The notes below the pieces were generated by a model. That model searched no databases. It worked only from the letters and a program-made list of their open reading frames with translations, and was not told the origin of the DNA. Below are positions 5,986 to 50,300 of a stretch of DNA of 64,000 bases, piece after piece. Made by a program: the position numbers and the translations under genes. The DNA comes from a bacterium (GTDB taxonomy: Bacteria; Joyebacterota; Joyebacteria; Joyebacterales; Joyebacteraceae), in NCBI GenBank assembly GCA_025774935.1, contig JALGZK010000005.1, forward strand, positions 248,001 through 312,000, read 5' to 3'. Every line of letters starts with the position of its first letter. Position 1 is the stretch's first letter.

Positions 5986-6290
5986 CTACTTGAGCAGCAC
6001 CACCATTCCCTCGCGGTGCTTGCCGTCTGCGTCCGCCGGGCAGAAGTAGACACCGGTGGCCAGACTCCTGGCGGCGTCCTCGCGGCCGTCCCACGACTCC
6101 GCGTGTCTCCCCGCTTCATTCGGAGAGTCGTCCAGGAGCGTCCGCACGAGAGCCCAGACGCATCGGAGATCCTGAGACTCACACGAGCGGGCTCCGGCAC
6201 GCCGAGTGCGAGCGTCGCCTTCGAGTTGAACGGGTCCGGACGCGCCGGGTAGACGTCGAGCGACGCACGGACTGAGCGTCCCAGGTGCAA
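5986..6290 (-). pseudogene. frameshifted FlgD-Ig/T9SS-like C-terminal sorting domain remnant
   Basis: LDVYPARPDPFNSKATLALGVPEPARVSLRISDASG in one frame continues as LVRTLLDDSPNEAGRHAESWDGREDAARSLATGVYFCPADADGKHREGMVVLLK* in another; 1-nt deletion near 6151. Confidence 0.65.
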
Positions 6291-45046: not shown

Positions 45047-46681
45047 CTACGAGCGAAGGTACACGACGAACCTGCTTCCCCTGCCAGGCTCGCTCGCGAG
45101 AGAGATGCGACCGTCGTGCGACTTCACGATCTTGTCCACGATCGCGAGTCCGAGTCCGGTCCCCTCTTTCTTGGTGGTCTTGAACGGCTGGAAGTACTCC
45201 TCGCGCTTGTCGGACGGGATGCCGCATCCCGAGTCCTCAACGAGAATCGCGACCTCATACTCCGGGCCGCCCTCCAGCCCGCGCGCCCCGAAGTCGTCCT
45301 TCCCCACGACCGAGAGCCGAACGCTCCCGTCCGCGTCGATCGCCTCGAGCGCGTTGATCGTGAGATTCAGGAGGGCGCGCTTCATCTGCTCGGCGTTGAC
45401 GTTTCCGATGACCGGTCCCGGCGTCTCCACGTCCATCTCAATCCGCTGGTCGTAGCTCGGATGGCCCTTCGCTATCGCCGCCACCTCGTCGAGCAGCGAG
45501 TCGAGCCTCACACCGGCGCGATCGGTCGACTCCATCCTCCCGAACTGCAGCACGTCGTGGAGGAGCTGGTTGAGACGGTCGGCCTCGCGCTGCACGAGTT
45601 CGATGAGCTTGAGCTCGTCGTTGGACGGGTCCGAGATCTCGTTGAGGAGGTCGATCGAGCCCTTGATCGCGTTCAGAGGGTTCCTGATCTCGTGAGCGAC
45701 GCCCGCCGCGAACTCCCCGAGCGCCGCGAGCCTGTCGTCATGTCGCAGCCGCTCCTCGAGCCGGCGCGCCTCGGTCAGATCCTGGAAGATGGCGATCACG
45801 CCCCGCTCGCCGCCGGCCTCGTCCCTGAGGATCGACGTCGACAGCCCGACCGGCACGCTCGCTCCGTGCTTCCGTCGGACGAAGAACTCGACGCGGTTCT
45901 CGGGCTGTCCTGCATCGAGCGCCTTCGCGATCCTCTCGCAGAACGCCGGGACCTCCGCGAAGACGACGCGGTAGTCCTGCCGCTCGCCCTCCTCCCCTTC
46001 GGCCGCGGCCTCCAGCCCCAGGATTTCTCGCCCGGTCCTGTTGACGTGGATGAGTCTGCCCTCTCGGTCGACGAGAACGATGCCGCTCGTCACGCTCTCA
46101 GTCACGGTCGAGAAGCGGAGCTCGCTCGTCTCCAGCCGGCCCCGCGTCTCGACGAGCGCCGACTCGCTGCTTCGCGCGCGTCTCGCCAGATAGGCCGCGA
46201 TGATGGCGACGAGGCCGAGCGTGACGAGGAGGCTCGCGGTGTCGGCCACCGTCTTCGACGCCTCTTCACCCATCCACTCCTGCGGACCGAGTACAGTCAG
46301 CACGAGGTGGCCGCCACCGGACGCCGCGGCGAGAACCATGCCCGAGGCCGCGCCGAGGCGCGCGGACGCGACGAGGACCGGAAGGAAGTAGAGGATCTTG
46401 AAGTGGCTGCCAAGGCCGCCGGAGTAGTGAGCGAGTACCGTGATGAGGACGATGTCGCAGGCGAACTGAACGTGGAGGAGGACCTCCGGGAGGAGACCTG
46501 AGCGGTCCCAGAGGAGATAGACGCCGGTGAGGACAGCGACGATGACGCCGAGCCAGATGATCGGCGTGCGCTCGATGCCTGCCCCCCCGAGAATCGCGAG
46601 AACGACCACGACGACTGCGATGAGGAGTCGCGCCATGATGATCGCGCGCGTCTTCGGGAAGTCTCCGGCTCTCTCCGTCAT
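45047..46681 (-). CDS. membrane PAS sensor histidine kinase
   Basis: TM N-terminus, PAS, HisKA GVAHEIRNPLNAIKGSIDLL, HATPase EDSGCGIPSDK...GTGLGLAIVDKIVKSHDGRI. Confidence 0.95.
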   Translation of the reverse strand: MTERAGDFPKTRAIIMARLLIAVVVVVLAILGGAGIERTPIIWLGVIVAVLTGVYLLWDRSGLLPEVLLHVQFACDIVLITVLAHYSGGLGSHFKILYFLPVLVASARLGAASGMVLAAASGGGHLVLTVLGPQEWMGEEASKTVADTASLLVTLGLVAIIAAYLARRARSSESALVETRGRLETSELRFSTVTESVTSGIVLVDREGRLIHVNRTGREILGLEAAAEGEEGERQDYRVVFAEVPAFCERIAKALDAGQPENRVEFFVRRKHGASVPVGLSTSILRDEAGGERGVIAIFQDLTEARRLEERLRHDDRLAALGEFAAGVAHEIRNPLNAIKGSIDLLNEISDPSNDELKLIELVQREADRLNQLLHDVLQFGRMESTDRAGVRLDSLLDEVAAIAKGHPSYDQRIEMDVETPGPVIGNVNAEQMKRALLNLTINALEAIDADGSVRLSVVGKDDFGARGLEGGPEYEVAILVEDSGCGIPSDKREEYFQPFKTTKKEGTGLGLAIVDKIVKSHDGRISLASEPGRGSRFVVYLRS

Positions 46682-47115
46682 GGCGTGTGCTCCCCGCCCG
46701 CGGGCGGCTCCCGGGAACCGGTGTCTCGTTGCGCGTCCGCCGGTGCAGGAGGTCCGGACGCGACGGCGAAGGGGCGGAGCCCGGCGAGCGTCTTCGGGCC
46801 GATGCCCTTGACCTCCAGGAGGTCGTCGACGGATGCGAACGCTCCACGCTCGCTTCTCGCACGCACGATCGCTTCCGCCTTCACGGGACCGATGCCTGGC
46901 AGGCGAATGAGGTCGTCGACGCCGCCCGCGTTGATGTCGACCGGCCACTCCTCGACGGCCGGCTCCCACACAGTCGAGTCGGCGGTTCCGGGCCGGGCGG
47001 ACGGAACGAGCGCAGGGTCGACCCTCCTCGCCGCCAGAACCAGCGAACCGACGACCAGAGAGGCCGTGAGGAAGAACACGACTGCCCGCTCGTCCTTCGT
47101 AAGAAGTCCCCGCAT
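46678..47115 (-). CDS. ComEA-like helix-hairpin-helix protein
   Basis: TM segment then VDINAGGVDDLIRLPGIGPVKAEAIVRARSERGAFASVDDLLEVKGIGPKTLAGLRPF. Confidence 0.88.
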   Translation of the reverse strand: MRGLLTKDERAVVFFLTASLVVGSLVLAARRVDPALVPSARPGTADSTVWEPAVEEWPVDINAGGVDDLIRLPGIGPVKAEAIVRARSERGAFASVDDLLEVKGIGPKTLAGLRPFAVASGPPAPADAQRDTGSREPPAGGEHTP

Positions 47116-47147
47116 CCCTGCCTCCCCACCCAGCCGTACGAATCTAG

Positions 47148-47168
47148 TGCATTGCGTTTTGCAATGCA
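47148..47168. promoter_or_regulatory. inverted repeat upstream of comEA-like gene
   Basis: TGCATTGC-GTTTT-GCAATGCA, perfect 8-bp arms. Confidence 0.35.
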
Positions 47169-47337
47169 AACGAATCTTCACCGGCCGGAAGGCCCCTTGT
47201 TTAGGGAGCGTTCCGGGCATTGGGGCAGGTCCAGGTATCGGAGTCGATGCGGGGACCGGGGCGGGGGCCAAGATGGGCGCCGGCGTGGGAGACGCTAAGA
47301 CGCGGCCGCGCTCGGCGGGGGCGTCTCGGGACGTCCG

Positions 47338-49842
47338 CTAGTCCCAGAAATCCCAGGAGAACCCTAGCGCGAACTCACGCTCGCCGGGGGGTTGCCAGGG
47401 CACGCTGAGCCCCTCGGTCTCGAAGAGGTCGCGGACGGAGAAAAAGACGCGTGCCGGTCCTGCGCTCGCGAGTACGGCCGCGTCGACGGCCGTGGAGGTG
47501 TCCTCGACCAAGCCGTCCCACGGGCCTCGTGCGAGTCCGCCCTCGTGTCTGAGAAGTAGTTCCCATCGTGTCGCGAGGAACTCGTTGAGGATCGTCCAGG
47601 GCGCCCAAGCTGAGGCCCGGACCGAGTACGAGGGAACGGGCGCGAGAGCGTTGAGTCCCCCTTCCTCGTCCAGACCGAAGAGATCGATGGCGACGCGGCC
47701 GCCAGGCCGGGAGCTGTCGCCGAGCGCCGCCCACAGGCCCGCCGAGCCGCACGTCTCCGCGGTCCCGTTCCGTGGCGTCGCCGTCCCGTCGTCGAAGTCC
47801 GAGAGCACGATCGGCGAGGAGACGCGGGCGACCTCGGCCGTCGCGCCGAACCCGAACACGCCGTCCCGCCGTTCGTACCCGCCGTACAGCACGAGCACCT
47901 TCTCGGGATCGAGCGTGCGGTTCCCTCGAACGAACAGCTCCTCGCCCAGTCCCCCGCCCTCGATCGGCACCTCCGTCTCGAGGAGCGCCCACTCGATCGC
48001 GGTCGGATGGCGCCCGCCCATATCGAAGCCGGCCCAGCCTGTCGAGCGGCTCCCCGTGAAACTGGCCGCGATCGTCCCGGTAGGGATGACGGCGGGATCG
48101 CGGTAGTCGACGCCCGCCGCGAGCGACAGTCGCACGTCCGGCAGAAGGTCCACGGCTCCGGCGAGTTCGCATGCCAGCCCGAGCGCTTCTTCGCCCGCGA
48201 GGAGCGTCCCGCTCGCGGTTCTGTGGTCCGCCCTCCACTCGATCCGATCGAGCCAGGGCACACCGAGCGAGAGCACGCCCCGCGCGCCGTTGCGCTTGAC
48301 CTCGCCGTCGGTGCCGAAGTGCCCCGACCTGCGGTCGCCGATCCACGACGTCGTGTGGAAGAGCTCCGCATTCGTCGCGCCCCTGGTCGCTCCGAGGGCG
48401 ACCTCGCTTCGGACGTAGTGGCGGTCGACCTCGGGGACCGACGAGTCGGGGAACGGGAGGCCGCGTTCGAGTTCGGTCCTGAGCACCCTGAGCTCCGCGC
48501 TCCACCCGGCCGGAAGCGGATACGTCAGACGACCTCCGGCCGTCTTGATGTCGTAACCGCCGCCCGGTTCAGGTGCGTCTCCCTGCCGACCATCGAACCA
48601 GACGTCGAGACCCAGCTTCTCGGCGAGGAACCGCCTGCCGAATTCCGCCTCGAGCGCGTTCCAGCCGTAGCTCCCGGTCCCCAGCGAGACGCGGGCGAAC
48701 GGGCGGCTCCCCGGCGGCCGGCCCGGCGTCACGTCGAGCGCGAGACCGGGTCCGAGGAGCGACGAGCCACGCTGCCCTCGGTCGGGGCGGACCTCCACGC
48801 TCGACGCCGCGTACGTCGGCCAGAGCGAGAGGTCGGGACCGCTCGGAACGTGAGAGCCTCCGGAGGAGAGGACCGAGGCAGCCAGAAGGTCGAGCCCGCC
48901 GTCGATCCAGTCGTCGAATTGCATCCCGTGCGCGGACGTGTTCGTCAGCGCCGGAGGAAGCGCGCCGCGCGCCGCCGAGGAACGATGCCCTCTCCACGCG
49001 GAGCCCGCCCTCCTCACGCCCGGGAGCGCACCGACGAGCTGTCCGAGATCGTCCGTCCGTATCTCGCGGACGTCTCCGGCGAACCCGGGACCCGGGGTGG
49101 GCCTGAGACCGACGGCCGGCGTCTCGGGCAGCGCGTCGGCAGCCGTCGAGTCGGCGAGCGCCGAGCCGCCGGGCATCGGGTCGGGCGCCGCCGCGTCAGC
49201 CGCGGCGGCCTCTCCCGTCCCCACGAGCACGAGGGCGCAGACGAGAAGGCAGCTCAGCGCGGCGCCTATCCCCCGCCCCGCGGTCGCCCGCTTGAGACGC
49301 GGAAGCACGACGGGCGTGAGCACGGCGAAGATGACGGTGTTCGAAACGAGGTGAATGAGCGAGAAGAAGGCGTTCGCGGCGATCGCCGCCATGATGCCGG
49401 TCCTGTACTCGGGGCTCGCGACCGCGATGCCGAGGATGACGCCGGACTGGTAGACGGCTGTCAGGACGAAGCCGACTCCCCCGGCCGCGGCAACGCCGCC
49501 CGCCGCCGGCAGCCCTCGACGACTCCCGCTCCATAGCCCACCGATCGCCCCTCCGGCAAGCCCGATGAGCGCGCCTGCGAGGACCTGGGCCACGTAGAGC
49601 GGTGGGAACGCGAGGCCGGAGCCGTAGGGGTTCACACCGGAGAAGATCGCCCAGGCGAGGGCGCCCACGGTCGCGCCCCGCCAGCGGCCCAGCACGGCCC
49701 CCGACACGAAGATCGTGAACGTGATCAGTTCGACGTTCGGAACGGCCAGGAGCAGCAGGCCGAGCGCGACCGCTAGTGCAACGAGGATCGCCGTGAGGGC
49801 GATCCTCGTCGTCCAGAAGGCACGATGGTCGGTGCGCTCCAT
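47338..49842 (-). CDS. fusion of ECF-transporter S-component-like membrane domain with TonB-plug-like outer-membrane beta-barrel
   Basis: N-term TM domain ...PNVELITFTIFVSGAVLGRWRGATVGALAWAIFSGVNPYGSGLAFPPLYVAQVLAGALIGLAGGAIGG...; internal signal-like RLKRATAGRGIGAALSCLLVCALVLVGTGEAAAADA; plug-like DLGQLVGALPGVRRAG; barrel ending FALGFSWDFWD. Confidence 0.75.
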   Translation of the reverse strand: MERTDHRAFWTTRIALTAILVALAVALGLLLLAVPNVELITFTIFVSGAVLGRWRGATVGALAWAIFSGVNPYGSGLAFPPLYVAQVLAGALIGLAGGAIGGLWSGSRRGLPAAGGVAAAGGVGFVLTAVYQSGVILGIAVASPEYRTGIMAAIAANAFFSLIHLVSNTVIFAVLTPVVLPRLKRATAGRGIGAALSCLLVCALVLVGTGEAAAADAAAPDPMPGGSALADSTAADALPETPAVGLRPTPGPGFAGDVREIRTDDLGQLVGALPGVRRAGSAWRGHRSSAARGALPPALTNTSAHGMQFDDWIDGGLDLLAASVLSSGGSHVPSGPDLSLWPTYAASSVEVRPDRGQRGSSLLGPGLALDVTPGRPPGSRPFARVSLGTGSYGWNALEAEFGRRFLAEKLGLDVWFDGRQGDAPEPGGGYDIKTAGGRLTYPLPAGWSAELRVLRTELERGLPFPDSSVPEVDRHYVRSEVALGATRGATNAELFHTTSWIGDRRSGHFGTDGEVKRNGARGVLSLGVPWLDRIEWRADHRTASGTLLAGEEALGLACELAGAVDLLPDVRLSLAAGVDYRDPAVIPTGTIAASFTGSRSTGWAGFDMGGRHPTAIEWALLETEVPIEGGGLGEELFVRGNRTLDPEKVLVLYGGYERRDGVFGFGATAEVARVSSPIVLSDFDDGTATPRNGTAETCGSAGLWAALGDSSRPGGRVAIDLFGLDEEGGLNALAPVPSYSVRASAWAPWTILNEFLATRWELLLRHEGGLARGPWDGLVEDTSTAVDAAVLASAGPARVFFSVRDLFETEGLSVPWQPPGEREFALGFSWDFWD

Positions 49843-49853
49843 CGAATCCCTCT

Positions 49854-50300
49854 CTACTCGAGGCTGTCGCGGGCGTCTTCGAGACGGTCCGGCGTCACGT
49901 CGTCGAGCTGCGTGTCCGAGGTGTCTCCCTCACCGATCGGCTCGATGTACTGCGAGATCTCCTCGCGGTGCTCGGGAGTGAGCCGGTTCCAGTTGCGCTG
50001 GACCTCCATGATGAGCGGCGTGCCCGATTTCCCGGGAACGTCGCTCTCGTACTCGGGAGGCAGGCTCAGCGGATCGAACACTGCGTAGACCTTGTACAGC
50101 GTGCCGGTCGAGTAGTCCAGGTCCCCCGAGGACATGGCCAGGTTGATGAGGGCGAACGAGTCGAGCTGGCTCTCGTCGATCTCGTATCCGGCGCCGCTCG
50201 CAGTCCCTTCGTCCGGCGGCGGGGCCTCCGACGCGCACCCAAGGAGGAGCGCTGCGACAAGCAGAACAGGGACGATCTTCAGACGTTTCATGGCTCTCAC
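49854..50300 (-). CDS. small lipoprotein
   Basis: Lipobox LLLGC; DYSTGTLYKVYAVFDPLSLPPEYESDVPGKSGTPLIMEVQRNWNRLTPEHREEISQYIEP. Confidence 0.75.
   Translation of the reverse strand: MRAMKRLKIVPVLLVAALLLGCASEAPPPDEGTASGAGYEIDESQLDSFALINLAMSSGDLDYSTGTLYKVYAVFDPLSLPPEYESDVPGKSGTPLIMEVQRNWNRLTPEHREEISQYIEPIGEGDTSDTQLDDVTPDRLEDARDSLE

Follow-up and report, generated by a model that had tools for sequence, protein, structure and literature searches.

A single 834-codon open reading frame (ORF) in a 64,000-nucleotide stretch of bacterial DNA, which we call the window, joins a predicted ECF S-component in frame to a predicted TonB-dependent receptor. The fused ORF is real and reflects neither chance nor assembly error. 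We favor the explanation, to which we assign a probability of about 0.74, that it encodes a polyprotein serving the import of vitamin B12 or a similar corrinoid, and that this polyprotein would be cut by signal peptidase I into the S-component and the receptor. If this is correct, then B12 uptake would have its two membrane steps, outer and inner, linked both genetically and in amount, and a complete signal peptide would be usable midway along a multi-spanning protein, an arrangement that would have evolved repeatedly.

Bacterial polyproteins are rare, and we know of none whose products are found in both of the different envelope membranes. FbcH, the cytochrome b/c1 polyprotein of Bradyrhizobium, contains an internal signal sequence that is cut by signal peptidase. 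Like the window protein, it joins an inner-membrane protein to an exported protein through that sequence, but neither FbcH product leaves the inner membrane, whereas one product should reach the outer membrane here. A literature search, whose coverage left out most subscription papers, returned no earlier fusion of an S-component with a TonB receptor, and this absence is no proof.

Parts of the fused protein

The first-pass annotation had divided the ORF into an S-component, a signal peptide and a TonB-type plug with a barrel, and this three-part reading was borne out by the relatives (Table 1). Genes at the locus are ordered helicase, urocanase, hutI, formiminotransferase, cyclodeaminase, small lipoprotein, fused ORF, histidine kinase, NtrC-type regulator, rsmD and coaD. 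The order around the fused ORF is conserved throughout the small phylum to which the window belongs (20 genomes), and the orthologues can therefore be compared in equivalent positions. The lipoprotein gene, which had no Pfam match, is kept in at least 11 loci of the phylum and could belong to the same uptake system. A gene for a ComEA-like helix-hairpin-helix protein lies between the fused ORF and the histidine kinase gene.

Table 1. Features of the fused locus, in window coordinates.
Feature	Position	Strand	Remarks
Fused ORF, 834 aa: S-component, internal signal peptide and TonB-receptor-like barrel	47338..49842	-	Single open frame with ATG start; 81% identical ORF in G002
Predicted ECF S-component domain, residues 1-183, cobalamin type, CbrT-like	49294..49842	-	Profile matches; PNVE and NP motifs conserved in alignments
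Predicted internal signal peptide, residues 184-215; n-region KRATAGRG, core LSCLLVCALVLV	49198..49293	-	Read from the sequence; aligned with split relatives
Predicted mature outer-membrane receptor, residues 216-834; C-terminus GFSWDFWD, beta-signal-like	47341..49197	-	
Plug-like part of the receptor, about residues 262-376	48715..49059	-	Profile alignment; Plug matches in relatives
Shine-Dalgarno-like AGAGAGGG, 5 nt upstream of the S ATG	49843..49853	-	Only strong ribosome site found for the fused ORF
GTG (Val179), candidate hidden receptor start	49306..49308	-	Weak Shine-Dalgarno pairing, -1.8 kcal/mol
Small lipoprotein gene directly upstream of S	49854..50300	-	Conserved in the phylum
ComEA-like helix-hairpin-helix protein gene	46678..47271	-	

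Pfam and NCBIfam searches with the window protein alone returned almost nothing (E=0.009 against PF07155, which misses the Pfam cut-off), and the case rests on family profiles. The best PDB match of the S-family profile was CbrT (6fnp_A), with E=8.8e-11 when 36 sequences were used and E=4e-4 with 21. This structure is that of ECF-CbrT, the cobalamin ECF transporter of Lactobacillus delbrueckii (PMC5997447). PF07155 was matched by 14 of the 21 S-family members (best 1.5e-6); many of the Pfam ECF matches were weak, and S-component family matches above the cut-off were obtained at two loci (L242 and L243). Hydropathy analysis of the window S-component revealed five clear helices and a weaker third one, followed by a strong helix at residues 191-209; the tail is rich in K/R. 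AlphaFold, run with two sequences only, gave pLDDT values of 52 for the S half and 27 for the barrel half, and the models were unusable. The separate family search, which matched ECF families as well as CbrT, confirmed the earlier assignment of the N-terminal half as a putative ECF S-component. Its homology with CbrT extends across the whole domain and makes cobalamin the likely substrate, but CbrT is a stand-alone protein from a bacterium without an outer membrane, whereas the window S-component is fused to a predicted outer-membrane receptor.

The barrel half by itself had no Pfam match and did not reach the Plug cut-off. Direct HMM searches with the window barrel profile found no link to receptors of other phyla; profile-profile comparison alone gave one. 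With hhalign, the window receptor family matched neighbouring receptors of other phyla over 526 columns (probability 98.6, E=1.2e-15), and these other receptors directly follow the same S gene, several of them passing the Pfam cut-offs for Plug and TonB barrel. Relatives of the window receptor also gave weak Plug matches. Together, the profile comparison and the Plug matches support the plug and barrel of the first-pass annotation and confirm this half as a probable divergent TonB-dependent receptor. Between the two halves, reading by eye identified PRLKRATAGR (4 K/R), a hydrophobic core and EAAAADA. This reading confirms residues 184-215 as a predicted internal signal peptide.

Fused and split genes

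The S and receptor genes could be read in 17 of the 20 genomes of the phylum, where they are fused in four (the window genome, G002, G014 and G006) and split in 13. In the split genomes, the S stop codon overlaps or shortly precedes the receptor start, typically as ATGA or GTGA, with GGAGG upstream. G014 is fused because of a 47-nt deletion relative to its split sisters, and the receptor ATG and Shine-Dalgarno sequence are still present. The window genome and G002 belong to the same genus, share the fusion, have lost the overlap and have no well-placed start; G006 has GTG alone, with moderate pairing. The alignment for the window's own lineage is small. Given relatives that are split with overlapping ATGA or GTGA, the loss of a stop codon, which the first-pass annotation listed among its options, is the best account of how the fusion originated. 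The stop would have been lost between two genes that already overlapped and were translationally coupled.

Two further observations were made in the phylum. A near-identical TTTGCATTGCGTTTTGCAAT element lies just past the stop of the fused gene in G014 and G006 (L033, about 5994-6090, and the same place in L034), and may be an operator or promoter of the next gene. G018 has two complete S-receptor loci (L037 and L038, on contigs C177 and C168), which its 6% contamination may explain.

A scan of 386 genomes with the S profile gave 47 positives from many families. In the positives that were read, the receptor gene usually comes directly after the S gene, often with a 4-base ATGA or GTGA overlap. 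The search was then extended to two further phyla and returned many more fusions. Among 117 loci read in all, 38 have one continuous frame in which S leads, by way of a segment resembling a signal peptide, to the receptor. With G190, counted from two contigs that overlap by 141 identical bases within the gene, the fusion occurs in 39 genomes. The assemblies are draft and metagenome-derived, and a few of the fused frames reach the end of a contig inside the receptor. G414 was rejected as a fusion, because its apparent join came from a second match to S lying in one frame with the first.

One family, f158, is fused in all 28 genomes in which the gene was found, spanning nine genera. Thus the prospect, raised in the first-pass annotation, that homologues would be consistently split fits most readable genomes of the window's phylum (13 of 17) but not f158, and the same fusion was found, as that annotation had proposed to check, both in G002 and in the wider set. 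Two genomes combine Pfam matches above cut-off within one ORF (ECF_trnsprt, ECF-ribofla_trS and Plug in G525; ECF-ribofla_trS and Plug in G526); these are separate genomes that share a single origin on the S tree. On this tree the fused state needs eight changes, at least seven of which are forced by supported branches, and none of 500 shuffles gave a number as low. These sequence comparisons suggest that different lineages of bacteria acquired the join on seven or more occasions, which argues for a recurring design and not an error.

Translation and processing at the junction

Group II S-components have their C-terminus in the cytoplasm, and the K/R-rich tail of the window S-component is in keeping with this. 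In the polyprotein model, residues 1-183 would fold into an inner-membrane ECF S-component of six helices, likewise with a cytoplasmic C-terminus, and therefore the seventh helix would be oriented like a signal peptide and pose no topological problem. The short positive stretch and this seventh hydrophobic helix would constitute the internal signal peptide and thread the remaining chain through the Sec pathway. Signal peptidase I would cut after an AxA-type site near residue 214-215, so that the S-component keeps a short seventh helix and stays in the inner membrane, while the freed TonB-dependent receptor is inserted into the outer membrane. We infer the topology, the cleavage and the outer-membrane insertion, as well as B12 transport by the window protein and equal production of its two parts.

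The junction was compared across 27 aligned f158 genes, in which the end of helix 6 is followed by a short stretch closing in LxGR, a hydrophobic core and AxAQ. The motif [AVSTGILC]x[AGS]Q occurs past the hydrophobic core in 23 of the 27, as against 8.4 expected from a composition-preserving shuffle that leaves shared ancestry uncorrected. The cut predicted for the window falls near A214/A215, between EAAA and ADA, and has no Q, which counts against the polyprotein model. As a separate observation, the f158 sites (L212-L235) mostly carry Q at +1 after AxA and resemble the "Q-rule" of Bacteroidetes, a rule that is reported to be limited to Bacteroidetes and to exclude related phyla (PMC5837995).

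The receptor could instead be made by internal initiation. The S stop would be gone, ribosomes would still start before the signal peptide, and the fusion would mostly be a harmless read-through. The ancestral arrangement of coupled, overlapping genes is consistent with this explanation, and it is a strong rival in G014, G339, G482 and G483, which keep the receptor ATG with Shine-Dalgarno pairing of -9.4 to -11.2; in G014, the deletion left this start intact. A separate start may therefore make most of the receptor in these four genomes. The window does contain the GTG that the first-pass annotation had proposed as a hidden start, but its internal candidates pair weakly (-1.8 and -0.1), and no internal start is conserved in f158, where a start codon is present in at most 8 of 27 genes at any alignment column, yet the fused frame is kept in all. 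After exclusion of the four genes that retain the receptor ATG and ribosome site, the best in-frame internal start had a median pairing of -2.8 kcal/mol in 34 fused genes compared to -5.6 kcal/mol for the receptor start in 56 split genes (p=2e-4). Shine-Dalgarno strength by itself gave no clean separation of the cases.

Selection on the junction also bears on internal initiation. The junction dN/dS was 0.37 when pooled over seven pairs and 0.48 for the window compared to G002, with 0.18 for S and 0.15 for the barrel. By these ratios the junction is under purifying selection, which counts against internal initiation. Internal initiation is therefore weaker for the window and f158 than for the four genomes that keep the receptor start, and we consider it unlikely as the general explanation. 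A conserved cut site, the lack of a conserved internal start and purifying selection favor translation of the whole chain followed by cutting by signal peptidase I, and of the options in the first-pass annotation, internal cleavage of a polyprotein is the best supported for how the protein works at present.

Alternatively, the chain might remain uncut and tie the two uptake steps together physically; S would sit in the inner membrane and the receptor in the outer one, and a linker rich in Ala/Pro would cross the periplasm between them. The topology would permit such a tether, given a periplasmic receptor N-terminus, an in-to-out helix 7 and a linker of ~45 residues (217-262) before the plug. 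However, AxA-type cut sites are conserved clearly more often than expected by chance, the linker varies and is scarcely long enough to cross a periplasm, and the same signal-peptide-like segment is an ordinary N-terminal signal in split relatives. Such a tether is thus quite improbable, and there is an equally slight chance that the chain stays uncut in some lineages, where it would covalently bridge an inner-membrane B12 carrier and an outer-membrane receptor and channel the substrate through the periplasm with no need of a separate binding protein. Finally, a missed stop or frameshift in the window, which comes from a draft genome in a phylum where 13 of 17 readable genomes are split, is refuted in practice by its congener G002, fused at 81% identity, by the recurrence of fusions in independent genomes and throughout one family, and by a junction dN/dS below 1.

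Link to cobalamin

Searches for a cobalamin riboswitch near the window gene and in the window's genus found none, which counts against the polyprotein model as a B12 system. The riboswitch (RF00174) is located directly upstream of S in eight loci, of which three are fused (G339, G482 and G483) and five are split (G020, G026, G076, G154 and G173). The window genome encodes EcfT and proteins with B12-binding domains and has no FecCD match. More generally, the genomes checked contain B12-binding-domain proteins, and their matches to the BtuC-type permease family are weak or absent. Of the features that the first-pass annotation proposed for mapping the substrate, riboswitches occur at the eight orthologous loci and not near the window gene, and EcfT occurs in the window genome. 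Homology with CbrT, the riboswitches upstream of orthologous S genes, and B12-binding proteins with little BtuC-type match argue that cobalamin or a close relative is most likely the substrate, as the first-pass annotation had guessed; for the window gene itself, the assignment would follow from homology. A cobalamin riboswitch ahead of an S-component that has a TonB receptor behind it or fused to it could thus serve as a simple genomic rule for assigning B12 uptake, and it would be useful for the many uncultured phyla that lack a good BtuC/FecCD permease match.

EcfT is present in 20 of 20 genomes of the phylum, but several f158 genomes and G477 gave a weak EcfT match or none, which makes the energy coupling of S less certain and also counts against the preferred explanation. 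The S-components of those f158 genomes may therefore work alone, as proposed for BtuM. BtuM is likewise a B12 S-component-like inner-membrane protein, found in Gram-negative bacteria and predicted partly from co-localisation with btuB (PMC6072759), but its gene is separate from btuB, and we saw no sequence match to BtuM. The predicted receptor resembles BtuB and BtuB-BtuG in being a TonB-dependent outer-membrane protein for B12 (PMC6977713), but it is strongly diverged and in frame with an inner-membrane S-component. In G020 and G026, a second receptor gene and a beta-propeller gene follow the S-receptor pair. Those of G020 have homologues in the phylum of the window, where the receptor and propeller genes concerned sit behind a cobalamin riboswitch. 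Such cobalamin-riboswitch-linked genes for a TonB receptor and a beta-propeller, which are BtuB/BtuG-like, were observed in relatives of the window at L120 (4684-8361) and L122 (6069-9655).
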